The notes below the pieces were generated by a model. It ran no database searches. It was not told the DNA's origin and saw nothing but the letters and a program-made list of their open reading frames with translations. Source: Siphonobacter curvatus (lineage in GTDB: Bacteria > Bacteroidota > Bacteroidia > Cytophagales > Spirosomataceae). Taken from it: DNA of 64,000 nucleotides. The DNA is taken from contig NZ_PTRA01000001.1 in assembly GCF_002943425.1 (NCBI RefSeq), forward strand, positions 3,286,001 to 3,350,000. The letters run 5' to 3'. Position 1 is the first letter of the stretch. The number at the start of each line of letters is the position of its first letter. Shown piece by piece: positions 15,797 to 53,260 of this stretch. The position numbers were made by a program, and so were the translations under genes.

Positions 15797-15910
15797 GTTT
15801 GAAGGTTTGGCGTTTAGAGTTTAGAGTTATTGAAATAGCACATCCATACCCTCGTGTCCTTGGTCTCCAATGCAGACTGACGCTAAACCCAAAACCGCTA
15901 AACGCTTAAC
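15797..15910. repeat. Heptamer-tract element T1 (two facing arms)
   Basis: Arm 1 (15797-15828) reads as GTTTnnn units on the plus strand, including two perfect GTTTAGA copies. Arm 2 (15881-15910) is the opposite orientation (CTAAACC, CTAAACG). A unique spacer of about 50 bases separates them. On the minus strand the AAAC face of arm 1 ends 14 bases before the ATG of the membrane-protein gene. Confidence 0.65.
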
Positions 15911-15916
15911 AGAGTC

Positions 15917-16921
15917 TTAATTTTCCTGATACAATACCTGAGTTACGGTTTGGCCTACGGCTTTCATGACGTTTTTGTCAATCACTTCCATGTTGTCCTT
16001 ATGGGTATGGTGATAATCGCCGAAGGTCTTCGGGTTGTTCACTTTCATTTCCACAATGTCCACCATCGGGATATTTGCCACTTCGTTTACAGCTACGTGA
16101 TCGTCCGTCAGACCGCCACCGGGTACCGGCAGAAAGTACTGATTATAGCCCAGTCGGCTCGCCGTATTCCAGATATTTTGTACAACGCTTGGAGCATATT
16201 GCAGGGAGTAACTCTCCTGCGGGAACTGAGCTCCTTTCGCTCCTACTAGATCCAATAAAATCCCGTAATAGGCAGAATAACCCGGTTTATGCGGATTTTT
16301 CGCCCAATATTGAGAACCTAACGCCCAGTTGGATCGTCCCTGAGCGGGTGTCATTCCTTCCTTCTCGCCCCAATCTTCAATATCAAAGAAAATAATATCG
16401 ATACCGACATTCGGCAACGGCTGGGCCTTCAGATTGCGGGCAATCTCCAACAGTACGCCAACGCCGCTACCGCCGTCATTCGCTCCGTCGAAAGGTTTGT
16501 TTTTGTACTGAGCGACGGTATCCTTATCCGCAAAGGGACGCGTATCCCAGTGAGCCGTCAACAGAATGCGTTTGGCGGCGTCGGGATTGATACTGCCAAT
16601 GATGTTACGGGCATTGAGCTTGGTACCGTCAAAAGCCGTCTCGGTAAAGGTCTGCTCGGTCACCGCAAATCCATAACTTTTCAGTTTGGCCACCATCCAG
16701 TCTCCGCAGGCCCGATGGGCTTTTGAATTGGGAATCCGGGGACCAAAATCAACCTGCTTCTGGACAAAAGCATAGGCCGAATCCGCGTTGAACACCGGAG
16801 CTGGAGCCAGCTTCGTCTCCTCCGTGGCCGTACTCTCCGCACTTTTCGATTTTTCTTTACAGGATTCAAGCAATAGGCCGCCCATCAACAGCAGCCCAAT
16901 CAGGGTGAGGGTACGTTTCAT
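15917..16921 (-). CDS. M28-family lipoprotein (glutaminyl-cyclase-like aminopeptidase)
   Basis: A 334-residue zinc exopeptidase or glutaminyl cyclase homologue anchored as a lipoprotein: the signal ends LLLESC with Cys21, followed by a charged linker. The M28 core is seen in ILLTAHWDTRPFAD (His124), DGANDGGSGVGVLLEIAR (Asp149) and IIFFDIEDWGEKEG (Glu182). A late VDIVE and DYHHTHKDN supply the last ligands. The order and spacing resemble bacterial and animal-type glutaminyl cyclases as much as aminopeptidases, so the reaction is uncertain. It is envelope-located and lies downstream of cysS on the minus strand, separated by heptamer element T2. Confidence 0.85.
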   Translation of the reverse strand: MKRTLTLIGLLLMGGLLLESCKEKSKSAESTATEETKLAPAPVFNADSAYAFVQKQVDFGPRIPNSKAHRACGDWMVAKLKSYGFAVTEQTFTETAFDGTKLNARNIIGSINPDAAKRILLTAHWDTRPFADKDTVAQYKNKPFDGANDGGSGVGVLLEIARNLKAQPLPNVGIDIIFFDIEDWGEKEGMTPAQGRSNWALGSQYWAKNPHKPGYSAYYGILLDLVGAKGAQFPQESYSLQYAPSVVQNIWNTASRLGYNQYFLPVPGGGLTDDHVAVNEVANIPMVDIVEMKVNNPKTFGDYHHTHKDNMEVIDKNVMKAVGQTVTQVLYQEN

Positions 16922-16933
16922 AGGTAGTTTGTG

Positions 16934-17019
16934 CAGTTTTCAGTTGATGGTTTTCAGTTCGTTTAGCCTTTGTCTTGCTCTTTTTACTAAAAACTAAAAA
17001 CCATCAACTGACCACTAAA
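16934..17019. repeat. Heptamer-tract element T2 (two facing arms)
   Basis: The arms at 16941-16959 and 16992-17010 are inverted copies of CAGTTGATGGTTTTYAGTT, 18 of 19 bases matching, around a T-rich spacer. Each arm continues as GTTTTCA-like heptamers. The arm on the M28 side lies 13 bases before that gene's ATG. The element could form a stable hairpin in the cysS-M28 intercistronic RNA. Confidence 0.7.
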
Positions 17020-17020
17020 T

Positions 17021-18511
17021 CTATTCTTCATACGCCCAGTCGATCCGTTGTTTCAGATCTTTAATGACCAGGCCATTTTGTTTAAATACGGAACGAATCT
17101 GATCGACTTTGTCGTATTGTTTCTGCGTTTTGAAATCGCGGTACAGGTCCAGCAAGCCATTGACCAGGGGCTCAAACGCTTCATTACGTTCTTCTTTCAG
17201 GCCCAGAATCTCCAGGAAAAACGTGAGATAGGTGGTCTTGAGTTTTTCAAAAACCTCCGCTCCCAGCTGGGCAAATTGACTCTGCCCCATGTACAACTGA
17301 TTGATTTTCTTCAACAGAGTAAACAGGTTCGCGATGGTAACAGCCGTGTTCAGGTCGTCGTTCATGCCCTCGTAGGCTCCCGCAATGGCTTTCTCGATTT
17401 CCTCTACCTGCTTCGGATCGATGCTCACGCTTTCATCGGCCACGTATTCCATTTCGCGGAGCAGACGTAGTCCATTTAACAAACGCTTGTATCCCTTTTG
17501 AGCCGCTTTGAGGGCTTCGTTGGAAAAGTCGAGCGTGGAACGGTACTGGCTTTGGAGCATGAAGAACCGGGTCGTCATGGGCGAATACGGCTGTTCGAGC
17601 AAATGGTGACTACCGGCAAACAACTCATTGGGCAGGAAGGAATTGCCCAGCGATTTGGACATTTTCTGGCCATTTACCGTCAGCATGTTCGAGTGCATCC
17701 AGTACTTCACCGGCGAAACGCCATTCAGGCCCGTACCCTGAGCAATCTCACATTCGTGGTGCGGGAATTTCAGGTCCATCCCACCCCCGTGAATGTCAAA
17801 CTGCGTACCCAAGTATTTCGTACTCATGCAGGTACATTCCAGGTGCCAGCCTGGGAAGCCCAGTCCCCAGGGGCTTGGCCAACGCATCAGGTGATCGGGA
17901 GCGGCTTTTTTCCAAAGAGCAAAATCCAGCGGATTGCGTTTTTCGCCGACGCCATCCAGATCGCGGGTTTCGCTGAGCAGATCTTCCAGAATACGACCAG
18001 AAAGTTTTCCGTAATCCTGCCCATTTTGGTTGTACTTTTCAATATCAAAGTACACCGATCCATTGGATTCGTAGGCTAAGCCTTTCTCAATCAAAGCTTT
18101 CACCGCTTCAATCTGCTCGACAATATGGCCCGTAGCCGTTGGTTCAATACTCGGTGGCAAGAAGTTAAATTTCGACAACACCTGATGGAAATCGTCCGTA
18201 TAGCGGTGTACAATCTCCATGGGCTCCAGCTTTTCGAGGCGGGCCATGCGGCCAATTTTATCTTCTCCCTCGTCGCTGTCGCCGGTCAGGTGCCCAACGT
18301 CCGTCAGATTACGAACGTACCGAACCTGATAACCAATGTGCCGTAGATACCGTACGAGTACATCAAAGGTGAGGAACGTCCGAACGTTGCCTAGGTGCAC
18401 GTAATTGTAAACGGTAGGACCGCAGACATACAGGCCCACGTGGGTCGGATGCAGGGGTTGAAAAACTTCTTTTTCCCGAGTCAGGGTATTATAAATCTTC
18501 AGGGATTGCAT
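17021..18511 (-). CDS. cysS: Cysteinyl-tRNA synthetase
   Basis: A 496-residue class I aminoacyl-tRNA synthetase that charges tRNA-Cys in the cytoplasm. Motifs are the zinc Cys30 in [15 protein letters not shown], the HIGH-equivalent HLGN at 39-42, [10 protein letters not shown] and [20 protein letters not shown] for zinc and cysteine recognition, and KMSKSLGN. The C-terminal DALR-type helical bundle follows. Length matches the family. Its promoter box lies about 140 bases upstream beside element T3. Confidence 0.97.
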
Positions 18512-18651
18512 GAACTAAGGGAATTGAATGAGATTGGTACCGAAAGCTCAGTACGCAAAAAAGTGAAACAGTCGAAGATTACTGACCGTTCCAACATCGA
18601 AATACGCGGGAAGAAAAAGAAACAGTTGCCACGTGATACAGGGTTTCGCCG

Positions 18652-18659
18652 CAAAAGTA
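18652..18659 (-). promoter_or_regulatory. -7 box for cysS
   Basis: The minus-strand sequence TACTTTTG fits TAnnTTTG exactly. It gives a leader of about 130 bases before the cysS ATG. The first arm of T3 starts 10 bases upstream of it. Confidence 0.5.
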
Positions 18660-18668
18660 AGGAAAAGA

Positions 18669-18870
18669 GTTTCGAGTTTTCCGTTTTCCGTTTAGAGTTT
18701 TCAGTGATGGGTTTCGATTCGTCGGATTAAAAATCCGTTACAGGTAGCTTTCGGATTGCAAATCCGAAAGAGCGGGTGTTTGGGTTTTGAATCTAAAAGA
18801 GAGCGTTGCTTCAAGCTTAGTACAGCCCCAGGGAAAACTGAAAACCGAAAATGGTAAACTGAAAACTCCC
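18669..18870. repeat. Heptamer-tract element T3 with embedded palindromes
   Basis: Arm 1 (18669-18717) is seven consecutive 7-base units without slippage: GTTTCGA, GTTTTCC, GTTTTCC, GTTTAGA, GTTTTCA, GTGATGG, GTTTCGA. Arm 2 (18831-18870) shows the same period in the opposite orientation. The arms face the two divergent genes and abut their -7 boxes at 18652-18659 and 18872-18879. Confidence 0.75.
18723..18770. repeat. Two REP-like palindromes
   Basis: CGGATT-AAA-AATCCG at 18723-18737 and CTTTCGGATT-GCA-AATCCGAAAG at 18748-18770 share the core CGGATTnnnAATCCG, with core starts 29 bases apart. They look like short extragenic palindromes. No REP-associated transposase gene is in the window. Confidence 0.6.
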
Positions 18871-18871
18871 T

Positions 18872-18879
18872 TATCTTTG
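18872..18879 (+). promoter_or_regulatory. -7 box for the GNAT-like gene
   Basis: TATCTTTG fits TAnnTTTG exactly, 26 bases before the ATG and 2 bases after T3 arm 2. Confidence 0.55.
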
Positions 18880-18905
18880 ACTAAAGATTCTTTTCCAGAT
18901 ACGCC

Positions 18906-20081
18906 ATGTTATTGTTCGAAGTCGGTACCAATCCGAAAGCCCAACGTGAATTTTTGATGTTTCCCGTACGTCTGTATCAGAACGACGCGAATTGGATTCG
19001 TCCGCTGGATCAGGACATTGAGTCCGTTTTTGATCCGCAGAAAAACAAAATGTTCAAACATGGGGAATGCATTCGCTGGATTTTACAGAACGACGCCGGA
19101 CAAACCATTGGCCGGGTAGCCGCTTTCGTTGATCACGACAAAGCTCACCTGGAAGAACAGCCCACGGGCGGAATGGGCTTTTTTGAGTGCATTGAAGACG
19201 AAAAAGCCGCCTTTGTTCTTTTCCAGGCGTGTAAGGAATGGCTGGAAAGTAAAGGTATGGAAGCGATGGACGGCCCCGTTAACTTCGGCGAACGCGAGTC
19301 TTGGTGGGGACTGATGGTACAGGGCTGGGATCACGAACCGACGTACAAAATGCCCTGGACGAAAGAGTACTACATTCGCTTTTTCGAAACATACGGCTTT
19401 CAGGACTACTTCAAGCAGTTTGTCTATACCTCGCCGATTCGGGAAGTGGTGGTTGCTCCGGCGGTGGAAGAAAAAGCCCAGCGGATCTATGCTAATCCGG
19501 AATACACCTTTCAACACATCGAAAAAGCCAAACTCGATCAGTATACGGAGGATTTCCGCAGTATTTATAATAAAGCCTGGGCCAAGTTTCCAGGTGTCAA
19601 ACCGATGAGCAGCGAGCAGGCTGCTTCACTGGTGAAATCCATGAAACCTATTCTGGATGAACAACTGATCTGGTTTGCCTACGCGGGCGGCGAGGCCATT
19701 GCTTTCTTTATCGTCATTCCGGACCTGAACCAGATCGTGAAGCACCTCAATGGAAAGTTTGGTCTGGTACAGAAACTCAAGTTACTGTACTTACTTAAAT
19801 GGAAAAAGGTAGTCACCCGTACCTGCGGATTGATTTTTGGTGTGATTCCAGACTATCAAGGCAAGGGCGTCGAGTCGGCCATTGCTCTGCGTTTCCGTCA
19901 GGCTGGGCGTGACAATCCAGACTATCAGTACCATACCATCGACATGAACTGGGTAGGTGATTTTAATCCGCGGATGAACCGCTTCGTTTCTCAATTGGGG
20001 ACCAAGATTGAAAAAACCTTTATCACGTATCGCTATCTGTTCGACCGTACCAAAGAGTTCAAACGCTGTCCACGGGTATAA
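18906..20081 (+). CDS. GNAT-like protein (YghO-type, 391 aa)
   Basis: A 391-residue cytoplasmic protein with the pattern of large GNAT-superfamily members: FPVRLYQNDANWIRPLDQDIESVFDP at the N-terminus, then GRVAAFVDHDKAHLEEQPTGGMGFFECIEDEKAAFVLFQACKEWL. MDGPVNFGERESWWGLMVQGW comes next, and a second acetyltransferase-like half carries GVIPDYQGKGVESAIALRFRQAG. It looks like the YghO family, whose substrate is unknown to me. It is flanked by a promoter box and a strong terminator, so it is monocistronic. Confidence 0.75.
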   Translation: MLLFEVGTNPKAQREFLMFPVRLYQNDANWIRPLDQDIESVFDPQKNKMFKHGECIRWILQNDAGQTIGRVAAFVDHDKAHLEEQPTGGMGFFECIEDEKAAFVLFQACKEWLESKGMEAMDGPVNFGERESWWGLMVQGWDHEPTYKMPWTKEYYIRFFETYGFQDYFKQFVYTSPIREVVVAPAVEEKAQRIYANPEYTFQHIEKAKLDQYTEDFRSIYNKAWAKFPGVKPMSSEQAASLVKSMKPILDEQLIWFAYAGGEAIAFFIVIPDLNQIVKHLNGKFGLVQKLKLLYLLKWKKVVTRTCGLIFGVIPDYQGKGVESAIALRFRQAGRDNPDYQYHTIDMNWVGDFNPRMNRFVSQLGTKIEKTFITYRYLFDRTKEFKRCPRV

Positions 20082-20099
20082 GGCTTTGCCTACGCTTGT

Positions 20100-20136
20100 A
20101 AAGATTACCTTCCTTCGGAGGGTAATCTTTTTTTTA
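20100..20136 (+). terminator. Terminator after the GNAT-like gene
   Basis: A stem of AAAGATTACC with its complement at 20121-20130, extended by inner pairs to a small TTC loop, is followed by a T-run. Confidence 0.9.
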
Positions 20137-20275
20137 TTAAAGCGTTCGTACTAAGTAGTCTATCCGAAATTAAAATCTCTTTTCTCATTAAACCCGTCCC
20201 CCCTCAACCCCATCCCATTACTGATCTTTCTACGGTGTATGCGTGAACTCTTTACTCCATCCGTCTTTTCATCCG

Positions 20276-21706
20276 ATGAAAAACACGCTTATTCAGTTGA
20301 AGCATTTGTATCAGCGGGCGGGCTTTGGAGCGAGTCCCGCTATGTTACAGCAAGCCAGTCGTCATTCCGTTCGGCGTGCGGTACAGGATCTTTTTGATGA
20401 CGCCCAGACTCCGCGTCCCCTGCACGTAGTCGATCCACAACGAGTAGGCTATTCCCGGAAAGTATTACTGGAAATGGTCCTGCAGAAAGGCCCCCTTTCA
20501 GAGGAACAGAAGAAGCAGTATATCCGGCAAATTGATCAGGAAAACCGGGAACTAATCGGGGATCTGAATTACGCCTGGATTACGCAAATGGCATCTGGAA
20601 CCAGCGTCTTACGCGAAAAAATGACTTTGTTCTGGCATGGGCACTTCGCCTGCCGAAGTCTGAATCCAACGTTCGTACAACGACAGAATAATACCATTCG
20701 TCAACATGCCCTAGGCAAGTTCGGCGATCTGCTCCAGGCCGTAGCTCAGGACCCTGCCATGCTTCAGTTTCTGAATAACCAGCAGAACCGGAAGCAAAGT
20801 CCGAATGAGAATTTTGCCCGTGAAGTCATGGAATTATTTACGCTGGGCCGGGGTCATTACAGCGAACAGGACATTAAGGAAGCCGCCCGTACATTTACGG
20901 GCTGGGGCTTCAATCGCGAAGGAACCTTCGAAATCCGGAAAAATCAGCACGATATCGGTACAAAAACCATTTTCGGAAAAACCGGCCCCTTCGATGGGTC
21001 GGACACCCTCTCACTCATCCTGGAACGTCCCGAAACTGCTCCTTTTCTGGTCACTAAAATCTATCGGTATTTTGTCAACGACCGGCCCGATCCGCAAATC
21101 ATTCAGCCGCTGGCCGCTGGTTTCCGTAAAAAGGACTACGACATCAGTTGGCTAATGCATGAGATCCTCACGTCCGACTGGTTTTATCGTCCTGAAAACA
21201 TCGGCGTGAACATCAAATCTCCGGTCGAACTACTGGTAGGCTTTCAGCGACAACTGGGCTTGAATTTTGGTCAAAAACAGGCAGTCCTCTACGTTCAGAA
21301 AGCTTTGGATCAGGTCCTGTTTTATCCGCCCAACGTGGCGGGCTGGCCGGGCGGTGCTACCTGGATTGATTCCTCCAGTTTACTTTTACGGATGAAGCTG
21401 CCCGAAATCATTCTTCAGGCGGCTCAGCTGAATTTTAAAGCCAAAGCCGATGGCGACGTCAACACGGATTACTTAGCGAAACGATCCAATAAGCCTTTTC
21501 TCCAAACGCAGTTCGACTGGGAAGCCTTTGCCCAACCCTTCGCCGGGTTGTCAACGGAAGCTTTGCTGGATGCGTTGAGTACGTATTTACTGGCCCGCCC
21601 GCTCCTGCCCTCGCAGCGAGATTTGTTACTGAAGCATCGTAAAAATAACGACTTGCAGGACTTCACTTTAGGAATTCTGACTTTGCCCGAGTATCAGCTT
21701 TGTTAA
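20276..21706 (+). CDS. DUF1800 family protein
   Basis: A 476-residue protein of the DUF1800 family. Recognisable segments are LKHLYQRAGFGASPA at the start and EKMTLFWHGHFACRSLNPTFVQRQNNTIRQHALGKFGDLLQAVAQDPAMLQFLNNQQNRKQSPNENFAREVMELFTLGRGHYSEQDIKEAARTFTGW. The latter is the family core with conserved His and Asn-rich NENFARE box. YPPNVAGWPGG lies near the end. No signal peptide is evident from the ATG at 20276. The frame is open for 11 more codons from a GTG, but the family usually begins close to this Met. It pairs with the DUF1501 gene, a very common neighbour pair of unknown role. Confidence 0.88.
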   Translation: MKNTLIQLKHLYQRAGFGASPAMLQQASRHSVRRAVQDLFDDAQTPRPLHVVDPQRVGYSRKVLLEMVLQKGPLSEEQKKQYIRQIDQENRELIGDLNYAWITQMASGTSVLREKMTLFWHGHFACRSLNPTFVQRQNNTIRQHALGKFGDLLQAVAQDPAMLQFLNNQQNRKQSPNENFAREVMELFTLGRGHYSEQDIKEAARTFTGWGFNREGTFEIRKNQHDIGTKTIFGKTGPFDGSDTLSLILERPETAPFLVTKIYRYFVNDRPDPQIIQPLAAGFRKKDYDISWLMHEILTSDWFYRPENIGVNIKSPVELLVGFQRQLGLNFGQKQAVLYVQKALDQVLFYPPNVAGWPGGATWIDSSSLLLRMKLPEIILQAAQLNFKAKADGDVNTDYLAKRSNKPFLQTQFDWEAFAQPFAGLSTEALLDALSTYLLARPLLPSQRDLLLKHRKNNDLQDFTLGILTLPEYQLC

Positions 21707-21723
21707 CGAACACCTCCTCAAAA

Positions 21724-22932
21724 ATGCCTACGCGTATGAATCGAAACGAATTTATTCGCCGCTCGGCTTTGGCTGCGGTCGGAACTTGGCTGATTCCGGA
21801 TTTTGTGAAAGCGTACGAACGCGATCAGATCAACACGTTTCGCACGAACGATAAGGTGCTGGTCATTGTACAGTTCTCGGGCGGTAACGATGGTTTGAAT
21901 ACCCTCATCCCGTTCCGAAATGACATCTATTACCGCGAACGTCCCAAACTGGCCATCCCCGAAACCAAAGTCCTGAAACTTACGGATGAACTGGCCCTGC
22001 ACCCGGCCCTTGAGAAACTTCGCTCCTGGTACGATCAGGGATACTTCCGCTTTCTAAACAACGTAGGATACCCCAACCCGGATCGTTCGCATTTTCGTTC
22101 GATGGACATCTGGCATACGGCCAGCGATGCCAGCGAATACCGGCAAACGGGCTGGATCGGACGTTACCTGGATGCTCAGTGTTCGGGAACCTGCCAACCG
22201 TATCAGGCCCTGGAAATTGACGATCAGCTCAGTTTGTCCATGAAGGGTGAACGCGTCAAAGGACTAGCCGTATCGGACCCTAAACGCCTGTATCAGCAAA
22301 CGAAAAACCCCTTTTATCAGGAGCTGGCCCGAGCTAATCACGAAGCATACGCGAACGTCGATTACCTCTATAAAACTTTGGCGGAAACGTTGTCTTCATC
22401 GGCGTACATCCACGCGAAAACCGATGTCACCAGCACAACGGCTTCTTATCCAACGCACGAACTAGGCCGCCGCCTAAAAACCGTGGCGGACTTTATTCGA
22501 TCCGGCGTTGATTCCAACGTCTACTACGTTTCCCACGGCAGTTTCGATACGCACGTGAACCAGCAGCCCAAACAGGAACAGTTGCTCAGACAATACGCCG
22601 AAGCACTCGATGTTTTTATGCAAGATCTGAAAGCCCAGCATAAACTGGACAAGGTGTTGGTACTGACGTTCAGTGAATTTGGTCGTCGGGTCAAACAGAA
22701 CGCCTCCAATGGTACCGACCACGGCACGGCCAATTGTGTCTTTTTGGCGGGGGGTAATTTGGCCCTAGATCGACAGTATCAGGCCGTTCCCGATTTAAGC
22801 GATCTCGATCAGGGTGATTTGAAATATAAAGTCGATTTTCGTGATCTTTACGCTACCCTACTCGACCATTGGCTGGGAATTAATTCCGTATCCGTACTGG
22901 GCAAACCATTCCCGGGCCTGAAGCTCGCCTAG
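21724..22932 (+). CDS. DUF1501 family protein
   Basis: A protein of about 400 residues in the DUF1501 family, which has an alkaline-phosphatase/sulfatase-like fold. It begins with a twin-arginine-like leader (MNRNEFIRRSALAAVGTWLIPDF), implying export in folded form. Family segments are VIVQFSGGNDGLNTLIPF, LRSWYDQGYFRFLNNVGYPNPDRSHFRSMDIWHTAS, HGSFDTHVNQ and LTFSEFGRRVKQNASNGTDHGTANCVFLAGG. Starts at 21724 or 21736 are both plausible; the second leaves MNRNEF as the first residues, as in relatives. It follows DUF1800 by 17 bases and is almost certainly co-transcribed. Function unknown. Confidence 0.88.
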   Translation: MPTRMNRNEFIRRSALAAVGTWLIPDFVKAYERDQINTFRTNDKVLVIVQFSGGNDGLNTLIPFRNDIYYRERPKLAIPETKVLKLTDELALHPALEKLRSWYDQGYFRFLNNVGYPNPDRSHFRSMDIWHTASDASEYRQTGWIGRYLDAQCSGTCQPYQALEIDDQLSLSMKGERVKGLAVSDPKRLYQQTKNPFYQELARANHEAYANVDYLYKTLAETLSSSAYIHAKTDVTSTTASYPTHELGRRLKTVADFIRSGVDSNVYYVSHGSFDTHVNQQPKQEQLLRQYAEALDVFMQDLKAQHKLDKVLVLTFSEFGRRVKQNASNGTDHGTANCVFLAGGNLALDRQYQAVPDLSDLDQGDLKYKVDFRDLYATLLDHWLGINSVSVLGKPFPGLKLA

Positions 22933-23866: not shown

Positions 23867-23909
23867 CGTTCCAATTTTGAAAAGCACTGATTATTTAACG
23901 CAATAGCTC

Positions 23910-29305: not shown

Positions 29306-29427
29306 GTTTGATAAGGTTTAAGTGCGTTTGAACGTTTCATGAGGTTTAAAGTTTGCGGGCACGAACAAGGCGACTGAAACATTAAACCTGTCTCAAACTT
29401 TAAACTTTATCATACCCATTCAAACCT
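29306..29427. repeat. Heptamer-tract element T4 (two facing arms)
   Basis: Arm 1 (29306-29357) carries GTTTnnn-type units spaced 7 to 10 bases. Arm 2 (29374-29427) carries AAAC units in the opposite orientation, with the matching ends AGGTTTGA and TCAAACCT. The AAAC arm ends 22 bases before the hemC ATG. This copy is less regular than T3. Confidence 0.55.
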
Positions 29428-33200: not shown

Positions 33201-33247
33201 TTTTCAACCTTCAACCCTTAAACTTTCAAACCCTCAAACTCGAAACC
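33201..33247. repeat. Heptamer-tract element T5 (single arm)
   Basis: Units of AAAC-type heptamers (CTTAAAC, TTTCAAAC, CCTCAAAC, TCGAAAC) occupy the end of the pabB-pabC gap and end one base before the pabC ATG. No facing GTTT arm is visible upstream. Confidence 0.55.
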
Positions 33248-33248
33248 T

Positions 33249-33845
33249 ATGCAATTACTCGAAACCATCCGTGTAGCCGATGGTGAACTAGAAAACCTGT
33301 TTTACCATCAGCAACGCATCTACAAAAGCCGGAAAGATTTGTTTGGAGCGACGGATCGCTGGGATCTGGAAGAGCTAATTTCCGTACCCGATACCCTGGA
33401 TGCGAAGAATATCTACCGCTGTCGGGTTTTGTACGGAGCGGAAGCAATTGAACAGGTAGAATTTATTCCATATACGATTCGTGCGGTTCAGTCTTTCCAG
33501 TTAATGGAAGCCTCAGATTTAACATATGCTTACAAATTCGCCGATCGTACGGCTTTGGAGTCCTTAGCGAAAGCGGCGGCGGCGGATGAAATTCTGATCG
33601 TGCGAAACGGTCTGCTTACCGATACCAGCTACGCGAATATTGCCCTTTCCGATGGTCAGGAATGGTATACACCCCATCAACCCCTGCTGGAAGGTACGCG
33701 GCGGGCGGCATTGCTAGCCAGTGGTCAGTTGATTCCCGAACGTTTATCCGTTGATGATTTGCGGTACTTCAAGGAAATTCGCTGGTTCAATGCCATGATT
33801 CCCTGGGAACTAGCCCCCAGCCTGCCGGTTTCGGCGATTCGCTAA
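33249..33845 (+). CDS. pabC: Aminotransferase class IV, aminodeoxychorismate lyase-like
   Basis: A 198-residue fold-type IV PLP enzyme. MQLLETIRVADGELENLFYHQQRI matches the start of PabC-type lyases. YAYKFADR carries the PLP Lys96, ADEILIVRNGLLTDTSYANIAL is the signature segment, and PLLEGTRRAALL completes it. Placed after pabB, it should release pyruvate from aminodeoxychorismate to give 4-aminobenzoate. It is shorter than E. coli PabC (about 270), as in other Bacteroidota. Its stop lies 2 bases from the convergent gene's stop. Confidence 0.88.
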   Translation: MQLLETIRVADGELENLFYHQQRIYKSRKDLFGATDRWDLEELISVPDTLDAKNIYRCRVLYGAEAIEQVEFIPYTIRAVQSFQLMEASDLTYAYKFADRTALESLAKAAAADEILIVRNGLLTDTSYANIALSDGQEWYTPHQPLLEGTRRAALLASGQLIPERLSVDDLRYFKEIRWFNAMIPWELAPSLPVSAIR

Positions 33846-38097: not shown

Positions 38098-38136
38098 TTT
38101 TCTACTTTTTTTTCATCCGATCCGGTCTTTGACGCC

Positions 38137-38144
38137 TACTTTTG
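38137..38144 (+). promoter_or_regulatory. -7 box for nuoD
   Basis: TACTTTTG fits TAnnTTTG exactly, 25 bases before the nuoD ATG. This suggests that nuoD is transcribed on its own. Confidence 0.5.
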
Positions 38145-38169
38145 ACACCACGTTTCTTCACTTCGCACT

Positions 38170-46372: not shown

Positions 46373-46533
46373 AATAGTCGAAGGCACTTCTCTACCCAAA
46401 AATAGCTATCCTCAAGCCTATCCAAATTCTCTCACGCCTCTATACCTACTGCTTATGAAAATAAGTATCGCTTTTTTATAGTCTATACCCTATATGAAGC
46501 AGACGCGTAAGTAAGCCCCTACACGAACACGAT

Positions 46534-46565
46534 ACGGGCCTTCTGCTTTTATTGCCCGTTTTTTT
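46534..46565 (+). terminator. Orphan terminator-like hairpin
   Basis: ACGGGC (46534-46539) pairs with 46554-46559 across a 14-base loop and is followed by seven T. No plus-strand gene ends upstream. Confidence 0.5.
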
Positions 46566-46656
46566 AGTTAGCTGAGCGTTTATTTCTCACTGAGCAGGAA
46601 GTCTTGCAGAACGTTTTATTTGTATCTTTTCGCCTTTCTTAAGCTTTAGATCGATT

Positions 46657-47028: not shown

Positions 47029-47066
47029 TTTACGAAGGCATGATCACCTCTACCTCTTATTAACTT

Positions 47067-47477
47067 ATGCATAAGATAAGCTTAGGCCTAGTACTCCTGA
47101 GTAGCTTAAGTTGTAGCAAAAAGGATCTTCCCTCGACTTCGCTAGTGGGGCATTGGCAGCTCGTTTCCTATTGCAAACCAGCCACCGACAGTACGTGTAC
47201 ACCCTTGACAATACCGAGTGACAAACAGGTACTGGTTACATTCAAGAAAAATGGCGATTTTGAAGAAACGTACGGAAATACTCTTCCGATTCATTACGCT
47301 TTTCTAGGTTGCGGCAATGGCAAGTACTCACTGGAAGATACCTCCGTCCGCATTCGGGCTCTGTGTATGTCTTCTACCCAGGGACGACTTTTCCAGCAGG
47401 TACAACTGGACGAAAATCGGTTGATTTTAACGCCTGACGGAACGGGTGAGTATATGTTTAAACGATTGGGAAGATAA
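47067..47477 (+). CDS. Lipocalin-like small lipoprotein
   Basis: A 136-residue lipoprotein: MHKISLGLVLLSSLSC with lipid on Cys16, then SLVGHWQLVSYCKPATDSTC and VLVTFKKNGDFEETYGNTLPIHYAFLGCGNGKYSLEDTSVRIRAL. GHWQL followed by repeated short strands is the look of lipocalin-like/DUF4488-type domains. Four Cys residues after the lipid Cys could form disulfides. Ligand and partner are unknown. It ends at a strong bidirectional terminator. Confidence 0.75.
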   Translation: MHKISLGLVLLSSLSCSKKDLPSTSLVGHWQLVSYCKPATDSTCTPLTIPSDKQVLVTFKKNGDFEETYGNTLPIHYAFLGCGNGKYSLEDTSVRIRALCMSSTQGRLFQQVQLDENRLILTPDGTGEYMFKRLGR

Positions 47478-47508
47478 AAAACGGGCTCCTGCAAAGAGCC
47501 CGTTTTTT
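47476..47508. terminator. Bidirectional terminator
   Basis: A 13-bp perfect stem (AAAAAACGGGCTC and its complement at 47496-47508) with a 7-base loop lies between convergent genes. Confidence 0.92.
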
Positions 47509-47513
47509 ATGGA

Positions 47514-48104
47514 TTAGAAGCGATACATGCCCGTCAAGCCAACGTTGGAAGAAGTGAACGCCGCATTAAGGCCGTAAATCGTAACGCCTGATCCAAAAGT
47601 ACCATTCAGGGACACCGTAGGAACAACTTCAGCACTTACATACCATTTAGGACTAATGTTGTACTGGGCACCTATCATAAAGCCAATGCCGAGTGACGTA
47701 TTCAATAAGAGATTTCCGGAACCCGTTATGGTTATCTTTCCGAACGTTCCGTCATCTACAGAAACATTTCCGCCGGGTGAATGACTTACGGTTAACCGGG
47801 GAATAAATTCCGTTCCATATACCACCTGAAATCGGTCGTTAATAGACTTTCGTTTCTCCTTGCCTATTGCTCCTCCTACGCTTAAATTGACCAGGCTACT
47901 TCCATTAACGATCCCCAACCCCAGATTCCCAAAAGCCAGACGGTATCGCTTGTACACATTTTCAGATTTTTGTTTTTTATAGACAAACCCTAAATCATTA
48001 AATCCATTCGTTCGTAATCCAATTTCACGCGTAGGTACATCCTGAGAAAAAGCAGCGGAAAGACTTACGAACAAAGCAGCACAGGTAAGAAAAACTCTTT
48101 TCAT
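47514..48104 (-). CDS. Small outer-membrane protein, unknown function
   Basis: A 196-residue protein with a signal peptide (MKRVFLTCAALFVSLSAAFSQ) and beta-barrel-like alternation (EIGLRTNGFNDLGFVYKKQ, YRLAFGNLGLGIVNGSSLVNLSVGGAIG, LNTSLGIGFMIGAQYNISPKWYVSAEVVPTVSL). It ends in VGLTGMYRF with C-terminal Phe. It resembles small OmpW/OprF-like barrels only in general form. It is monocistronic between the shared terminator and an A/T-rich upstream region of about 250 bases. Confidence 0.75.
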   Translation of the reverse strand: MKRVFLTCAALFVSLSAAFSQDVPTREIGLRTNGFNDLGFVYKKQKSENVYKRYRLAFGNLGLGIVNGSSLVNLSVGGAIGKEKRKSINDRFQVVYGTEFIPRLTVSHSPGGNVSVDDGTFGKITITGSGNLLLNTSLGIGFMIGAQYNISPKWYVSAEVVPTVSLNGTFGSGVTIYGLNAAFTSSNVGLTGMYRF

Positions 48105-48295
48105 AAATAGATTGGTTGATTGAATTGCAAACTATTCATAACTTTTGAATGTGCTACTTTTAGTCTAAAGCTTACCCTGTTAAAAATTGTAAAAACGCTG
48201 TTTATTCCATCCCTTAAAAGCCATTAGATGCAGGCCTCTACTTCTGACTTAAGAATTGATTAGTAACCTATTATTTTACTCAAAATGAATCAAAC

Positions 48296-48327
48296 AAAAA
48301 AGCTCCAACCCAGAAGATTAGAGCTTT
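48296..48327 (-). terminator. Terminator of the PUL/gntP-ridA-dipeptidase run (minus strand)
   Basis: AAAGCTC (48299-48305) pairs with 48321-48327 and is followed on the minus strand by T-rich sequence. It lies 30 bases after the dipeptidase stop. Confidence 0.65.
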
Positions 48328-48357
48328 GTATACTTCATTAATCATTGTTCATGATTG

Positions 48358-49428
48358 TTATTTCCAGGCTCGTCTCAGAAAACGCAGCCAGTTTCCGTGC
48401 ATGATTTTTTCAACATCCGTTTCCGTATAACCCCGCTTACGGAGCAGATTCGGAACGGTTTGTAAATCAGCAATCGTTTCAAGATCATACGGGGACTGCT
48501 CGCGACCAAAGGCTCCGTCGAGATCCGTACCGATGCCGATGTGGTCGGCATTTCCGGCTAGCTGACAGATGTGATCAAGGTGATCGACCAGTACTTCCAG
48601 ATTACAGTTCATTTCTTCGGGAGTCGACTGCCCGCGTACCCAGTTGGGTACCATCATCCAGGCGTCCAGGGCTCCGCCAATCACGGCATCGCGGTTAATC
48701 AACTCGCGAATTTGTTCATCGCTGAATTGCCGGTTGTGATTCACCAGGGCCCGACACAGGTTATGACTCGCCCAGACCGGACCGTTGTAATGATCCATCG
48801 CTTCCCAGAAACTATCGTCGCACAAATGCGTCGCGTCGAGAATGATGTTCAGGCGTTCCATTTCCTTGAGCAAATCCTGCCCGACCTTCCCCATGAAACC
48901 CGTTGCATCGGTTCCCTGAGCGTATCGGCCCGGTCCGTAATGAGCGGGTCCGATGGCCCGGAGCCCGTAGTTGTAGGCCCGCTCCACGTGATCAAGCGTT
49001 ACGAGCGAATCAGCTCCTTCCAGACTTAGAATGTAACCCACGGGTTTGGACTCATTGGGCGTACCGTCGTTCCAGAGGGACAGGTGTTTTTCCAGGCTTG
49101 CCAGATCGGTGATGGCCGTCATTTCGCCTTCATCCTCCATGGCTTTGTACCAGGAAACCTGACCCTGCGTTTGAGCCCAGGCCTGTTGCGGCGAATGCCA
49201 GCCCGGTAAGGGATTATTGGGAGCCACGTACCGGGCAATCTGCGTCGCCACAACTACGGCTACATTTCCTTTACGAAGTTCGGGCAAAGATACGGTCGCC
49301 TTGCCCCGATCCGGTTTATCGGTCAGCCCCTGTTCTCTGGCATTGATTTCAGCGACGGGCAACCGTAAATCCCGGTTCCACTCCATCGCATTCATGCTCA
49401 GATCAAGGTGAGCGTCTATGATTAACAT
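48358..49428 (-). CDS. Membrane dipeptidase-type M19 peptidase
   Basis: A 356-residue zinc dipeptidase of the renal dipeptidase family. The metal site starts with IDAHLDLSMN (His7, Asp9). LSLEGADSL supplies the bridging Glu, and the His residues are in DATHLCDDSFWEA and WASHNLCRALVNHNRQFSDEQIRELI. GIGTDLDGAFG completes the TIM barrel. No signal peptide is visible, so it is probably cytoplasmic. M19 enzymes cleave dipeptides, including those with D-amino acids. It is the last gene of the run after ridA; heptamer element T6 ends 7 bases before its ATG. Confidence 0.92.
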   Translation of the reverse strand: MLIIDAHLDLSMNAMEWNRDLRLPVAEINAREQGLTDKPDRGKATVSLPELRKGNVAVVVATQIARYVAPNNPLPGWHSPQQAWAQTQGQVSWYKAMEDEGEMTAITDLASLEKHLSLWNDGTPNESKPVGYILSLEGADSLVTLDHVERAYNYGLRAIGPAHYGPGRYAQGTDATGFMGKVGQDLLKEMERLNIILDATHLCDDSFWEAMDHYNGPVWASHNLCRALVNHNRQFSDEQIRELINRDAVIGGALDAWMMVPNWVRGQSTPEEMNCNLEVLVDHLDHICQLAGNADHIGIGTDLDGAFGREQSPYDLETIADLQTVPNLLRKRGYTETDVEKIMHGNWLRFLRRAWK

Positions 49429-49434
49429 GTATGC

Positions 49435-49545
49435 GTTTTGAGTTTGGGGTTTAGGGTTTTGAGTTTTTTGTCAAAACCTAACCCAATCTATTATAGTAGT
49501 TGAGCACTAAGTTTGGAATTGAGCACATTACTCAAAACTCTAAAC
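49435..49545. repeat. Heptamer-tract element T6 (two facing arms)
   Basis: Arm 1 (49435-49469) is five exact 7-base units: GTTTTGA, GTTTGGG, GTTTAGG, GTTTTGA, GTTTTTT. A short facing run at 49471-49484 and a second arm at 49530-49545 carry AAAACCTAACC and CAAAACTCTAAAC. Arm 1 begins 7 bases upstream of the dipeptidase ATG. Confidence 0.7.
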
Positions 49546-49550
49546 TTTTT

Positions 49551-50042
49551 TTAAACCAGTTCAAACAAAGCCTCAATTTCTACCGGAATGTTGTCGGGGA
49601 GGGAGCCGAACCCTACGGCAGAGCGGACGCCGATGCCGTTTTCTTCGCCCCAAACCTGAGCAAATAATTCACTACAGCCGTTGATGATGTAGGGATGACG
49701 TTCAAATTCAGAAACGCAGTTCACCATACCCAGCACTTTGATCACCCGCTTCACGCGATCCAAACTACCCAGGTGGGTTTTGATGGTAGAAAGGATCGTC
49801 AAGCCTACCTGACGGGCGGCGAGTTTTCCGTTTTCGGTGTCGATTTCCCGGCCAATGCGACCGATAATAAGGCTCTTATCGTCCTGTACCGGACCGTGCC
49901 CGGACACGTACAGGTACTTGCCATCAATGAGGTACGGTTTGTATACGCCCAACGGCAGCGGAGCCGGAGGTAAAGTAAGGCCCAGTTTAGCAAAAGCAGC
50001 TTCAGGACTAAGTTGTTCGATGGTTGTTGCGGCTGTGTTCAT
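49551..50042 (-). CDS. RidA family protein (YjgF/UK114-like)
   Basis: A 163-residue RidA-superfamily protein of the longer subgroup: PPAPLPLGVYKPYLIDGKYLYVSGHGPVQDD, then ARQVGLTILSTIKTHLGSLDRVKRVIKVLGMVNCVSEFERHPYIINGCSELFAQVWGEENGIGVRSAVGFGSLPDNIPVEIEALFEL. The Arg of GVRSAVG matches the residue needed for imine hydrolysis in RidA. It may remove reactive enamine or imine by-products of amino-acid breakdown. It sits between gntP and the dipeptidase, with heptamer tracts on both sides. Confidence 0.9.
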   Translation of the reverse strand: MNTAATTIEQLSPEAAFAKLGLTLPPAPLPLGVYKPYLIDGKYLYVSGHGPVQDDKSLIIGRIGREIDTENGKLAARQVGLTILSTIKTHLGSLDRVKRVIKVLGMVNCVSEFERHPYIINGCSELFAQVWGEENGIGVRSAVGFGSLPDNIPVEIEALFELV

Positions 50043-50050
50043 GGAATTTT

Positions 50051-50204
50051 GTTGGTGGTTATTGGTTGGTAGTTAGTTTATGTTTAGCGTTTACACTCGA
50101 CTGCCTACAGATTTATTAGTCTTGAATATTAGTAGATAGTAAATACTTGGAGTTTTTTCGGCAGAGCAACTGAACATTAACTCTAAACACAAAACTCTAA
50201 ACGC
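50051..50204. repeat. Heptamer-tract element T7 (two facing arms)
   Basis: Arm 1 (50051-50095) carries GTTGGTG, GTTATTG, GTTGGTA, a 10-base unit, GTTTAGC, GTTTACA. The facing arm 2 (50176-50204) carries ACTCTAAAC and AAAACTCTAAACGC. Arm 1 begins 9 bases upstream of the ridA ATG. Arm 2 ends 2 bases from the gntP stop. Confidence 0.65.
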
Positions 50205-50205
50205 A

Positions 50206-51507
50206 TTAAATTATTTGATTCAAAATCAGTACCCCCATCAGGCCGACGAAGGCTACGAGTGTTTCCATCATTGACCAGGAACGGATGGTATCTTTCACCG
50301 AAAGGTTGAAATATTCCTTAAACATCCAAAATCCCGGATCGTTTACGTGCGAAAACATGAGACTGCCCGCACCAATGGAGAGCACCATCAAATTCGGATT
50401 GGTCGTTTGCTGAGCCATCAGTGGAGCAATAATGCCGGCGGCCGTTAGTCCTGCCACCGTGGCCGAACCAATGCAGACCCGGATGATGGCCGCAATGAGC
50501 CAGCCCAAAAATAAGGGAGGCATTTGTAGCCGCTGCAATTGTCCGGCAATTTCGTTACTCACGCCACTATCCGTCAGAATCTGTTTCAACGCTCCGGCTC
50601 CACCGATGATCAGTACAATCATGGCAATGTCTTTCACCGCCGTTTCGTACGTACTCATTACTTCCTTCATAGTCTTGCCGCGACTCAATCCTAAGGTTAC
50701 GGTAGCGACAGCGACAGAAATGAGCATAACAATGGCCGGATCACCCACAAAGGTCAGTACTTCCTCGAAGGCATTGCCCGGGAAAAAATGGGATACCGTC
50801 GTTAAGGTCAACAGCAATACGGGCAACAGCGAGGTAAGGAAACTACTCAGTCCGCTGGGTAACTCGGCCTCAGGAATGGGAGTGGTCTGAAAGGTAACCA
50901 GGGGTTCTGAATTGATCCGTTTGAGCGTCAGAGCGTATACCGGTCCGGCCAGAATGATTGTAGGTACGGCGATAATCAGTCCGTATACCAGCGTCAGCCC
51001 CATGTCCCCGTGAAACTGAGCCACCAGAGCGGCAGGCGATGGATGCGGCGGCAGAAAGCCGTGAGCCACCGAAAGCGAAGCCAGCATGGGTAAGCCAATG
51101 GCCACTGCCGGTAATCGGTATTGGTACACAACGGAAAAAATAAGCGGTACCATCAGGACAAACCCTACGCCGTAAAACAGCGGAATGCCGATAATGAAAC
51201 CCGTGCAGACTAGTCCCCACTGAATGTATTTAGCCCCAAACAACTGCATCATCACGGAAGCGATTTTCTGGGCGGCTCCACTTTCAGCGACGAGCTTGCC
51301 CAACATCGCCCCTAACGCAATGATGATGATGAGTGAACCCAGCGTATCCCCTACTCCTTTCTGAACGGATTGGGCCATTTTTCCAAGCGGCATTCCTAAA
51401 AGTCCACCGGCCAGCAGGGAAACGACCAGAAAGGCTAGAAAGGGATTGACTTTAGCCCAGACAATCAATAATACCAGAATGACAATACAGGCGGCAACAA
51501 TCAACAT
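50206..51507 (-). CDS. GntP-family gluconate:H+ symporter-like transporter
   Basis: A 433-residue inner-membrane transporter with about 12 helices. Family features are NPFLAFLVVSLLAGGLLGMPLGKMAQSVQKGVGDTLGSLIIIIALGAMLGKLVAESGAAQKIA, then MLASLSVAHGFLPPHPSPAALVAQFHGDMG, a GntP hallmark, and SATVAGLTAAGIIAPL. GntP proteins import gluconate or related sugar acids; the substrate here is uncertain. No gluconate kinase is adjacent. It follows the GH29 gene by 65 bases, and a heptamer tract lies 16 bases before its ATG. Confidence 0.93.
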   Translation of the reverse strand: MLIVAACIVILVLLIVWAKVNPFLAFLVVSLLAGGLLGMPLGKMAQSVQKGVGDTLGSLIIIIALGAMLGKLVAESGAAQKIASVMMQLFGAKYIQWGLVCTGFIIGIPLFYGVGFVLMVPLIFSVVYQYRLPAVAIGLPMLASLSVAHGFLPPHPSPAALVAQFHGDMGLTLVYGLIIAVPTIILAGPVYALTLKRINSEPLVTFQTTPIPEAELPSGLSSFLTSLLPVLLLTLTTVSHFFPGNAFEEVLTFVGDPAIVMLISVAVATVTLGLSRGKTMKEVMSTYETAVKDIAMIVLIIGGAGALKQILTDSGVSNEIAGQLQRLQMPPLFLGWLIAAIIRVCIGSATVAGLTAAGIIAPLMAQQTTNPNLMVLSIGAGSLMFSHVNDPGFWMFKEYFNLSVKDTIRSWSMMETLVAFVGLMGVLILNQII

Positions 51508-51522
51508 GGGTTACAACTGGCG

Positions 51523-51550
51523 GTTTTGAGTTTAGGGTTTTGAGTTGGAT
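51523..51550. repeat. Heptamer-tract element T8 (single arm)
   Basis: Four exact 7-base units: GTTTTGA, GTTTAGG, GTTTTGA, GTTGGAT. The arm begins 16 bases before the gntP ATG. No facing arm is seen. Confidence 0.65.
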
Positions 51551-51572
51551 AAATGCGGGTTTGACTTGCCCT

Positions 51573-53225
51573 TTATTCCAGCGTTAGTTTGCTGATTTTT
51601 TGGGTGTTGCCTTCGATTCGCATATTGTCCTGATATAGTACGGCCCGGTACTCAATTTCGTCGTAGGACTGAATGTTCTGTTTCAGCATTTCCAGCGTTA
51701 CCTTGCCCGTAGCGGTCACGGGATAGGCATCGGTAGCTTTCCACTTTTCGTTGAATTCTTCGTTGAGGGAGCTTTGTACGGAACGGTACTCGAATCCGAT
51801 CCGGTACTCTTTTCCGGAACCCATTTTCACAACATCGGCCGTTAATTTCAGGTTGCCGTTGCTGAGCTTCTCCGCACTCACGGTTCGGAACTGCATCGGT
51901 GTCAGAGCAGGTTCTACGTTTTTGAGCTTCACGACAATGGGGTTAGGCCACTGGTGATTGTTATAGATTCGCTGGGCCCGTACCACCGAAATTTTCAATC
52001 CTTCGGGGGTCTGCTCGAAACGCGTACGACCATCTACAGTGGGTTTGTATTCCACGACGTTACCAGTTTGTCCGAGAACAGTTACTTCCGTCGTTGCCGT
52101 TGCTTTCACCGAACGAATCAAAAACTCCCGACGCTCGGCCCGAGGCCATTCCGGCATACCGGTCAGGTACGCGTATACCGTGTTTTCGTCTTTCTTTTTG
52201 GTGAACCAAATGTCATTTTCGTTCCGAACAATCCAGGGGCGTACGTTGTGCACGGCTTCCTGGTTGATAAAATGCCAGGCTCCGATTTCCATCAATCGCC
52301 CTTCTTGTCCTTCATTGAGGTTCCCCCACTGCGTAGGCCCCACATTAAGCAGGTACGAGCCACCCTTCGCCCGCGATTCGATGAGAATATTCAGCAGTTC
52401 CGTACCCGATTTGTAGTGTTCATTGGTGGGCTTGTAGTTCCAGGCCGTACCCATCGTCATGCAGCTTTCCCAGGCCGTACCCAGCGTTTCGCCGGGCAGG
52501 TATTGTTCCGGCGTAGGCAGGGCTCCACGGGTAACCAGGCAATTGGGCTGGTACTTCCAGATGGTTTCTTTTACTTCTTCCTTCAGTACGTCGCTGTCAA
52601 TGAAAAACAGATCAACCGGACCGTACTTGGTCATGAGTTCCTTGGTCTGCTCAACGACAAATTTTTTGTATTGAGCCTGAAAGGGTTTCGCCTTTTCCCA
52701 ATGGTTGTCGCGGGTGATGTCCTTCATGCCGTTGCGGTAAGCGAACGAAAAATCTTCGGGAGAATAATAAAAGCCAACGGCGATTTTCCATTTCCGACAG
52801 GCTTCCACGAATTGACGTACGATGTCCTTTTTGTAGGGTGTGTTCATGACGTTGAAATCCGTCGTTTTGGTATCCCACATGCAAAAACCCGCGTGGTGTT
52901 TAGTCGTGAACATGATGTACTTCATGCCCGCGTTTTTAGCCAGCATCACGATTTTTTCAGCATCCCATTGTTTGGGATCGAAGGTTTGAGGAAGCTCTTT
53001 GATGTACCGATCCACGTAATCCGGCGAAGCCCCCACGAGCGAGTGGCTGATGACGACGCCCAGCTGTGTATCCACGTTCCAGTGAATAAACATACCAAAG
53101 CCCACATCTTTCAGCCACTCTTCGCGTTCGGGTTTATTATGGTTGGCTCCAAAATTCTCAGTTTCCTGAGCCCAGGAAGCCAGGGTACAAAAAAGTAGGC
53201 AGAGGAAGCAGGATAATCGACGCAT
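51573..53225 (-). CDS. Alpha-L-fucosidase, GH29 family
   Basis: A 550-residue exported glycoside hydrolase (signal MRRLSCFLCLLFCTLASWAQ). GH29 landmarks are FGMFIHWNVDTQLGVVISHS, MKYIMFTTKHHAGFCMWDTKTTDFNVMNTPYKKDIVRQFVEACRKWKIAVGFYYSPEDF and KYGPVDLFFIDSD, where the Asp in FFIDSD matches the family nucleophile position (usually WFD). ESRAKGGSYLLNVGPTQWG ends the barrel, followed by a beta-sandwich C-domain. HHAGF replaces the commoner HHDGF. The enzyme should release L-fucose, or act on a related glycoside, in the periplasm. The open frame reaches 12 codons upstream into heptamer tract T9, so ATG 53225 is chosen. Confidence 0.9.
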   Translation of the reverse strand: MRRLSCFLCLLFCTLASWAQETENFGANHNKPEREEWLKDVGFGMFIHWNVDTQLGVVISHSLVGASPDYVDRYIKELPQTFDPKQWDAEKIVMLAKNAGMKYIMFTTKHHAGFCMWDTKTTDFNVMNTPYKKDIVRQFVEACRKWKIAVGFYYSPEDFSFAYRNGMKDITRDNHWEKAKPFQAQYKKFVVEQTKELMTKYGPVDLFFIDSDVLKEEVKETIWKYQPNCLVTRGALPTPEQYLPGETLGTAWESCMTMGTAWNYKPTNEHYKSGTELLNILIESRAKGGSYLLNVGPTQWGNLNEGQEGRLMEIGAWHFINQEAVHNVRPWIVRNENDIWFTKKKDENTVYAYLTGMPEWPRAERREFLIRSVKATATTEVTVLGQTGNVVEYKPTVDGRTRFEQTPEGLKISVVRAQRIYNNHQWPNPIVVKLKNVEPALTPMQFRTVSAEKLSNGNLKLTADVVKMGSGKEYRIGFEYRSVQSSLNEEFNEKWKATDAYPVTATGKVTLEMLKQNIQSYDEIEYRAVLYQDNMRIEGNTQKISKLTLE

Positions 53226-53232
53226 GTATTTA

Positions 53233-53260
53233 GTTTTCAGTTTGCGGTGGTCTGTTTTCA
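53233..53260. repeat. Heptamer-tract element T9 (single arm)
   Basis: Four exact 7-base units: GTTTTCA, GTTTGCG, GTGGTCT, GTTTTCA. The arm begins 8 bases before the GH29 ATG. Confidence 0.65.

Follow-up and report, generated by a model that had tools for sequence, protein, structure and literature searches.

Inward-facing GTT heptamer arrays at gene edges in Siphonobacter curvatus: kept sites with replaceable contents

The 64,000-nucleotide stretch C1:3286001-3350000 (hereafter the window) of the 6.39-Mb Siphonobacter curvatus genome contains intergenic tracts in which GTTT, or AAAC on the other strand, recurs with a period near 7 bases, often as two arms facing each other across a spacer. 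What kind of element are these heptad tracts, how widely do they occur, and what could keep them at the edges of genes? We find that the tracts are real and reach far beyond the window, as copies whose full layout is (GTTNNNN)n, spacer, (NNNNAAC)n. We favour, although we would not yet call it probable, the reading that they are fast-renewing RNA hairpins that fold away at gene edges, mostly between co-directional genes, a view built from sequence comparison and predicted folding.

Results

The window contains nine tracts, six of them with two opposed arms. All nine intergenic tracts listed in an earlier, sequence-only reading of the window were located, as was the second, opposite arm in six of them (15797, 16934, 18669, 29306, 49435 and 50051). 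The period of 7 assigned to every tract held for most: in six, three or more GTT or AAC follow one another exactly 7 bases apart (15797, 16934, 18669, 49435, 50051 and 51523) and tract 53233 has spacings of 7 and 14 with a degenerate unit between, but 29306 and 33201 are GTTT/AAAC tracts and not clean heptads. Across the window, GTTT-to-GTTT distances of 7 occur 18 times and of 14 13 times, while each remaining lag from 5 to 13 occurs 2–6 times. Below, G000 denotes the S. curvatus genome itself, G003 the sister species, G001, G002, G004 and G005 relatives within the genus, and G009 and G013 members of the family; genes were called throughout with a simple in-house caller. The window features are as follows.

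15797..15832, plus strand: left arm, GTTT inward, five GTT units at spacings 8, 7, 7, 7; 13 bp from the start codon of minus-strand gene 15370-15783
15881..15910, minus strand: right arm (AAAC on the plus strand), four AAC units; minus-strand gene 15917-16921 has its stop codon nearby
16936..16964, plus strand: left arm, with CAGTTGATGGTTTT in common with its partner arm
16985..17016, minus strand: right arm, partner of 16936..16964
18669..18717, plus strand: left arm, six GTTT units; the junction of GGAAAAGA with GTTT is kept in G003, G002, G005 and G001 and absent in G004
18718..18831, no strand: spacer, containing TCGGATT..AATCCG palindromes also present elsewhere; differs from the spacer common to G002, G005 and G001
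18832..18869, minus strand: right arm, four AAAC units; 5 bases on comes TATCTTTG, then gene 18906-20081
29306..29358, plus strand: left arm of a GTTTGA-type element, spacings 10, 10, 8, 10, 7
29374..29427, minus strand: right arm, partner of 29306..29358
33202..33247, minus strand: single AAAC arm, spacings 7, 8, 8, 8, 7; last AAAC 2 bp before the ATG at 33249
49435..49469, plus strand: left arm, five units; at this site G005 carries an element of different composition, and the 37 bp of G004 hold none
49530..49545, minus strand: right arm, partner of 49435..49469, two units
50051..50095, plus strand: left arm, GTT units GTTGGTG, GTTATTG and GTTGGTA, then GTTT
50178..50203, minus strand: right arm, partner of 50051..50095, three AAAC units; the stop of minus-strand gene 50206-51507 is 3 bp away
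51523..51547, plus strand: single left arm, four GTT units; gene 50206-51507 has its start codon 15 bp away
53233..53260, plus strand: single left arm in which one unit is degenerate; a likely ATG at 53225 is 7 bp away; G005 has a longer two-armed element here

Heptad tracts form an intergenic family, as the sequence-only reading had proposed, and it extends over the whole genome. The four-unit scan that it suggested, GTTT(N3GTTT)x3, gave 82 matches in G000 and a single match for the reversed control. In 320 kb of the same genome (16 pieces at round coordinates, chosen after the hit list had been seen and free of any four-unit run, where element density may be understated), GTTT runs of at least three units at period 7 numbered 5; none appeared in any of 10 first-order shuffles or for a TTTG control. 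Location is almost exclusively intergenic, with 54/55 groups between genes in 41 stretches (864 kb including the window; 24 of the 40 others were picked with hits in view).

The period does not depend on the choice of motif. Counting any intergenic tract that repeats itself at a given lag, without reference to GTTT, we found 129 tracts at lag 7 in 767 intergenic regions versus 1 after shuffling, 87 at lag 14 (twice 7), and 2–11 at lags 4–6, 8–13 and 15. In the 16 round-coordinate stretches taken by themselves lag 7 stands out less: it has 8 tracts, lag 14 has 7, lag 15 has 5 and lag 12 has 4 (range for other lags, 0–7). Among the 129 motif-free tracts, 121 hold at least three GTT or AAC in register. 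The GTTTnnn unit first described therefore survives in its core and is better written as GTT plus four variable bases. Conditioned on GTTT runs, the consensus is GTTT, T/A, G/C, A/G, and units fall into two classes with a purine or a pyrimidine at position 6. This class agrees between both arms of a copy (correlation 0.87 in G000 and 0.95 in G003).

Several repeats accompany or vary the family. A pure GTTTTCC array of about 13 units lies at C1:1561298-1561385 of G000, and long pure arrays, such as a GTTTCCA run, are also found in G003. In the G002 region orthologous to window 914-1023 (L083), GTTTGATATA occurs about nine times with AAAC tracts opposite, which suggests a period-10 version of the same layout. 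By eye, several arms (L047, L058, L036, L070) have at their border or within them a GC-rich palindromic motif built around GCGGCCGC or a close variant of it; GCGGCCGC itself has 18 sites in our own-genome sample (36 with both strands counted). Some spacers contain TCGGATT..AATCCG-type palindromes or other repeats (window 18718-18831; L047 15979-16312; L148 11355-11600) that recur elsewhere in G000 and G003, and these make up a separate repeat family lying within heptad elements.

The family is widespread and unevenly distributed. Each of six genus genomes has 82–450 matches to GTTT(N3GTTT)x3, with reversed controls of 0–14 in four of them and of 64 and 106 in G002 and G001; the pattern is present in 22/59 genomes searched, our own included. 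A strict convergent pattern (20–50 bp between arms, overlapping registers counted apart) gave 237 forward matches in 25/395 Bacteroidota genomes, 17 of which belong to one genus of the same class, versus 20 matches in 10 genomes for the same pattern read backwards. The opposite arm order was found in 0/395 of these genomes (its own backwards control: 3 matches in 2 genomes). A scan of named genomes returned at least 120 stretches, and the matches listed include Flavobacterium, Larkinella, Fibrella, Spirosoma, Siphonobacter aquaeclarae, Niastella, Terrimonas and Bacteroidales, as well as, outside Bacteroidota, Nitrospira, Acidobacteria, Verrucomicrobia, Desulfobacterales and Oscillatoria records. 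The latter may be related, convergent or binning errors.

Arms obey a strict orientation rule with respect to each other and to genes. Our own-genome sample comprised 61 stretches (1.26 Mb, with 10 kb counted twice where L036 and L157 overlap; only 16 of 60 stretches were placed at round coordinates), in which 34 two-armed copies are convergent (GTTT.. ..AAAC) and 1 is divergent. Within 40 bp of a gene edge there are 74 arms, 37 at starts and 37 at stops, and GTTT faces inward in all of them and outward in none; 62 lie between co-directional, 7 between convergent and 5 between divergent genes. A further 28 arms lie beyond 40 bp. Among intergenic regions of 40–1000 bp, elements occur in 59/494 co-directional, 7/114 convergent and 6/142 divergent cases. 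In 42 co-directional two-armed copies the left arm begins a median of 6 bp past the stop codon, the right arm ends a median of 23.5 bp ahead of the start codon (arm-to-start spacing varies from 3 to 322 bp) and the spacer has a median length of 56 bp. At named and other loci 228/249 arms are GTTT-inward, with 21 exceptions, proportions partly forced by fetching these loci with the convergent pattern, and 18/335 arms fall within simple open reading frame calls.

Elements also tend to occupy regions with few promoter-like motifs. TAnnTTTG is the -7 promoter box of Bacteroidota, and TATCTTTG ahead of gene 18906-20081 fits it. In co-directional regions of 60–300 bp, TAnnTTTG occurs in 2/46 with an element and 53/305 without (P = 0.027). 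Invertible promoters were considered and rejected: the spacers of 36 co-directional elements (2,434 bp) hold 0 sense and 1 antisense TAnnTTTG, against 0.74 expected by shuffling, so promoter switching is not supported.

Predicted folding pairs each arm preferentially with its own partner. The mean predicted minimum free energy is −34.5 with the own partner arm and −30.5 with swapped right arms, and 0/60 swaps were as low (unit class not controlled). At the variable NNN positions the match to the own partner is 6.68, compared with 5.56 for swapped partners (0/1000 as high) and 6.23 for partners swapped within a class (8/1000). By these scores the arms match each other beyond the effect of common composition. 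In G009 and G013, the 9 loci fetched with the convergent pattern have long, partly perfect stems, for example a 66-nt hairpin with a predicted −55 kcal/mol.

One copy lies inside a structured RNA. At L152 6374-6648 (minus strand) a cobalamin riboswitch (RF00174, 83.4 bits) carries a heptad copy in a variable region, which spans 126 bases here and 43 in the model. On the riboswitch strand this copy is predicted to form a hairpin, and it is also present in the sister G003. An Rfam search of the window and 16 loci at the gathering score found no family that models the elements, and one element inside a Cobalamin match. Elsewhere, heptad arms come to within 18 bp of an RNase P RNA (L047 13734-14130) and 52 bp of a TPP riboswitch (L060 12058-12152).

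Sites are kept between sister species while contents are often replaced. We paired 217 orthologous intergenic regions of G000 and G003, calling elements as runs of at least three units, and 22/25 element-bearing regions hold an element in both genomes. Neither the shuffled sequences nor the close relatives thus speak against the family, in the two respects that the sequence-only reading had singled out, but across the genus sites come and go. Among regions of 60–500 bp, less than 0.4 of the sequence aligns between sisters in 8/20 regions with an element and in 8/152 called without one (P = 6e-5), at least one of the latter eight (window 33150) having a heptad tract that the run rule overlooks. 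In the eight replaced regions arms and spacers differ, as does unit class in several (for example L045, L047 7780, L050 10826, L150); at L150 the element has changed, but a terminator-like hairpin next to it and distinct from it has been kept. Mean identity of flanking genes is 0.935–0.963 for the 8 replaced and 0.957–0.976 for the 12 kept regions. Flank identity in replaced cases is lowest in the nearest 50 bp, and we rejected import of cassettes by recombination via flanking genes, finding no clear tract in flanks up to 250 bp. At L051 10548 a 16-bp spacer is inverted between the sisters: the inverted alignment scores 45 and the forward one 25, and 200 shuffles reach at most 20.

Whole elements have been gained or lost over the genus. 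The site 29306-29427 is filled in G000 and G003 and reduced to 13–23 bp in G002, G005, G004 and G001. Element 16936-17016 is absent from the same four relatives, which have regions of 46–55 bp with another hairpin instead. Conversely, site 38098-38169 is empty in G000 and G003, holds irregularly spaced GTTTGA tracts in G002 and G005 and heptads in G004. Region 18512-18905 has identical junctions but differing units in five genomes. Next to these comparisons, the G001 ortholog of the window's cysteinyl-tRNA synthetase gene is in three pieces with stops, and a second copy, 50% identical, lies elsewhere in that genome (L076-L079; C22:162447-163932 and C14:65690-67129).

Within arms, the core changes less than the rest of the unit. 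Sister differences affect 42/1063 core cells, 94/828 NNN positions and 3990/64871 positions elsewhere, a pattern consistent with units being shuffled around a kept core. A motif-defined count gives differing GTTT in 8/372 and 7/387 cases within arms versus 211/4056 and 207/4027 outside. We do not argue for selection on GTTT from the latter count because it is conditioned on intact GTTT, and use the motif-light count instead.

Spacers are largely private to their sites. Of 43 spacers, 33 match nothing beyond themselves or their ortholog in the sequence compared, and 10 have repeats or short pieces in common. We sought sources for 12 of the 14 replaced spacers of at least 40 nt (11 in 39 genomes, one in 6; the L053 and L070 regions of G003 were left out) and found long matches only at their own places, although at most 12 candidates were scored per genome and faint sources could be missed. 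Matches off site were weak, of 28–63 bases, one of them a palindromic self-match.

Discussion

The reading that we favour, fold-away RNA hairpins, would work as follows. A copy would be co-transcribed with its flanking genes and fold, looping out the spacer so that the stop codon and the next start remain close; the start would then be preceded by an A/C-rich strand and the stop followed by a G/U-rich one. With the spacer looped out, an element would be tolerated between operon genes, and even inside a riboswitch, with little harm; marking or protecting the ends of mRNAs may be a further role. Repeat number and the order of units would change through slippage inside an arm and through copying from one arm to the other via the hairpin, and whole cassettes would be exchanged at occupied sites by some process.

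Several observations weigh against this proposal. The within-class partner match in our own genome is only mildly above that of swapped arms, and the element is dispensable at single sites, as at 29306-29427. The slower core rate is modest, and most of the slowness in the motif-defined count is what conditioning predicts. Replaced spacers had no source in the genomes searched. Moreover, arms between convergent genes follow the same orientation rule (7/7), for which the start-codon argument fails to account.

A neutral origin is the strong rival. Arrays would arise as replication products, through heptamer slippage and template switching between inverted arms, with selection only purging hits in coding sequence or promoters. 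Such an origin, which we hold to be possible if doubtful, would accommodate the pure arrays, the rapid turnover of NNN and the one inverted spacer, and a lag of 7 fits the heptamer bias of long simple repeats (Mrazek 2007, cited in PMC4679880). Slippage alone nevertheless leaves unexplained the GTT/AAC core of nearly all motif-free tracts, the absence of the opposite arm order from the 395 genomes searched, and the replacement of spacers at sites that keep an element. Mobility by some enzyme, with heptad arrays as the terminal inverted repeats of a miniature inverted-repeat transposable element (MITE), would suit the fixed inward orientation, the broad, scattered distribution, and the way in which arms and spacer are present or absent together at orthologous sites (the regions at 29306 and 914 of the window). 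MITE copies, however, have internal sequence in common and target-site duplications. Here arms differ from copy to copy, internal sequence is not common to copies, and the replaced spacers that we searched matched at length solely at their own place in related genomes; empty sites were too diverged to align in a check for target-site duplications. We consider MITE-type mobility unlikely, and dropped a MITE with a shared core altogether, given the 33/43 spacers without a match in other copies.

Roles for the arms as signals fit less of the evidence. Binding sites in leaders for a regulator, whether protein or ribosome, were proposed for TAACTGA repeats (PMC4679880), and the AAAC/AAC strand does precede starts here in the orientation of TAACTGA in Beggiatoaceae as that paper presents it, but arms are as frequent after stops as at starts, their spacing from starts is variable and they are self-complementary, which makes this reading improbable. 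Intrinsic transcription terminators would explain why arms follow stop codons so closely; they are very unlikely all the same and were rejected as an account of the family, since the U run expected after the stem is rare (TTTT within 10 nt in only 4/68 outer flanks) and the hairpin at L150 that does resemble a terminator is separate from the element. CRISPR arrays consist of long repeats with several regular spacers, and the sequence-only reading was right to exclude them, the unit here being 7 bp with one spacer per copy. Coding pressure was likewise dropped as a cause of the tracts.

Finally, the elements might be cassettes of a widespread class, made by a dedicated activity that adds (NNNNAAC)n to the two 3′ ends of any piece of DNA and afterwards exchanges the complete cassette without a change of intergenic site. 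We regard this as a long shot. If true, it would yield content-free, position-keeping RNA hairpins, and its marks would be the fixed inward GTT, the agreement of unit class between arms and the source-less replaced spacers.

Intergenic heptamers and hairpins of other kinds are known in bacteria. STRR heptamers of cyanobacteria are intergenic tandem heptamers, and REP/BIME palindromes are intergenic hairpin-forming repeats with one common sequence and a transposase. The GTTT family shares with REP/BIME its intergenic position and hairpin-forming arms, but its copies have only the GTT core and the layout in common. In Nostoc, GGGGAYT is likewise an intergenic tandem heptamer, described with few inverted pairs (PMC4692102). 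TAACTGA heptamers are reported from Beggiatoaceae, Cyanobacteria and five Bacteroidetes, with the AAC strand before start codons in the main species and other heptamers mixed in among some Bacteroidetes (MacGregor 2015, PMC4679880). Both they and the GTTT family are intergenic heptamers whose AAC strand faces start codons. As presented there, however, TAACTGA forms direct repeats (with one indirect set) of fixed sequence, mainly before starts in the main species, which the GTTT family does not, and TAACTGA does not emerge as a direct repeat unit from our unit tables.

The closest counterpart is found in Xanthomonas. The sequence-only reading knew of no described element of this kind, and our literature search, which covered few subscription journals, returned no paper on the GTTT form; TAACTGA heptamers had nonetheless been described (PMC4679880), as had convergent heptamers with the same gene-edge rule, the GGGAATC / GGGANTN repeats of Xanthomonas (Rehm et al. 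2015, PMC4692102). According to the parts of that paper used here, these are intergenic, with a conserved core and most often four units, form 70 and 75 convergent pairs in two species, and show a preference for positions no more than 50 bp from stops (on the sense strand) or from starts (on the antisense strand), with few between divergent genes and 83% kept in the sister species. Most are transcribed (24/183 are without transcript assignment), and transcripts start or stop in the quadruplex-type repeats more often than in a control set. In general no link to mobile elements is drawn, a quadruplex explanation is favoured, and the regions are described as having raised stability, judged by the identity of neighbouring genes (PMC4692102).

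The GTTT family matches that description in its intergenic 7-base tandem units with a fixed core, its convergent paired arms, its core strand lying sense after stops and antisense before starts, and its gene context kept in the sister species. It differs in stability, in that neighbours are kept and cassette content is often replaced, and in its core. The Xanthomonas core is GGGA and quadruplex-forming, whereas the quadruplex pattern (four runs of at least three G, loops of 1–7) occurs in 0/112 arms of G000, 0/63 of G003, 1/302 at named loci and 0/43 of four other genomes, although 66/112 own arms have at least one GGG. The quadruplex explanation is therefore not general, and the factor common to both layouts is more likely pairing, orientation and gene-edge position. 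The absence of the opposite arm order, as seen for the GTTT family in 395 genomes, is not mentioned for Xanthomonas in those parts of PMC4692102. As far as these sources describe it, the GTTT family is a Xanthomonas-type layout with another core: the layout is known and the core is new. Scattered reports of intergenic heptamers are hereby joined into one layout with one orientation rule, which exists also with a core that hardly ever gives a quadruplex pattern. Its kept sites with replaced contents, together with the riboswitch copy, make origin and function testable in culturable Flavobacterium, Siphonobacter and Spirosoma.

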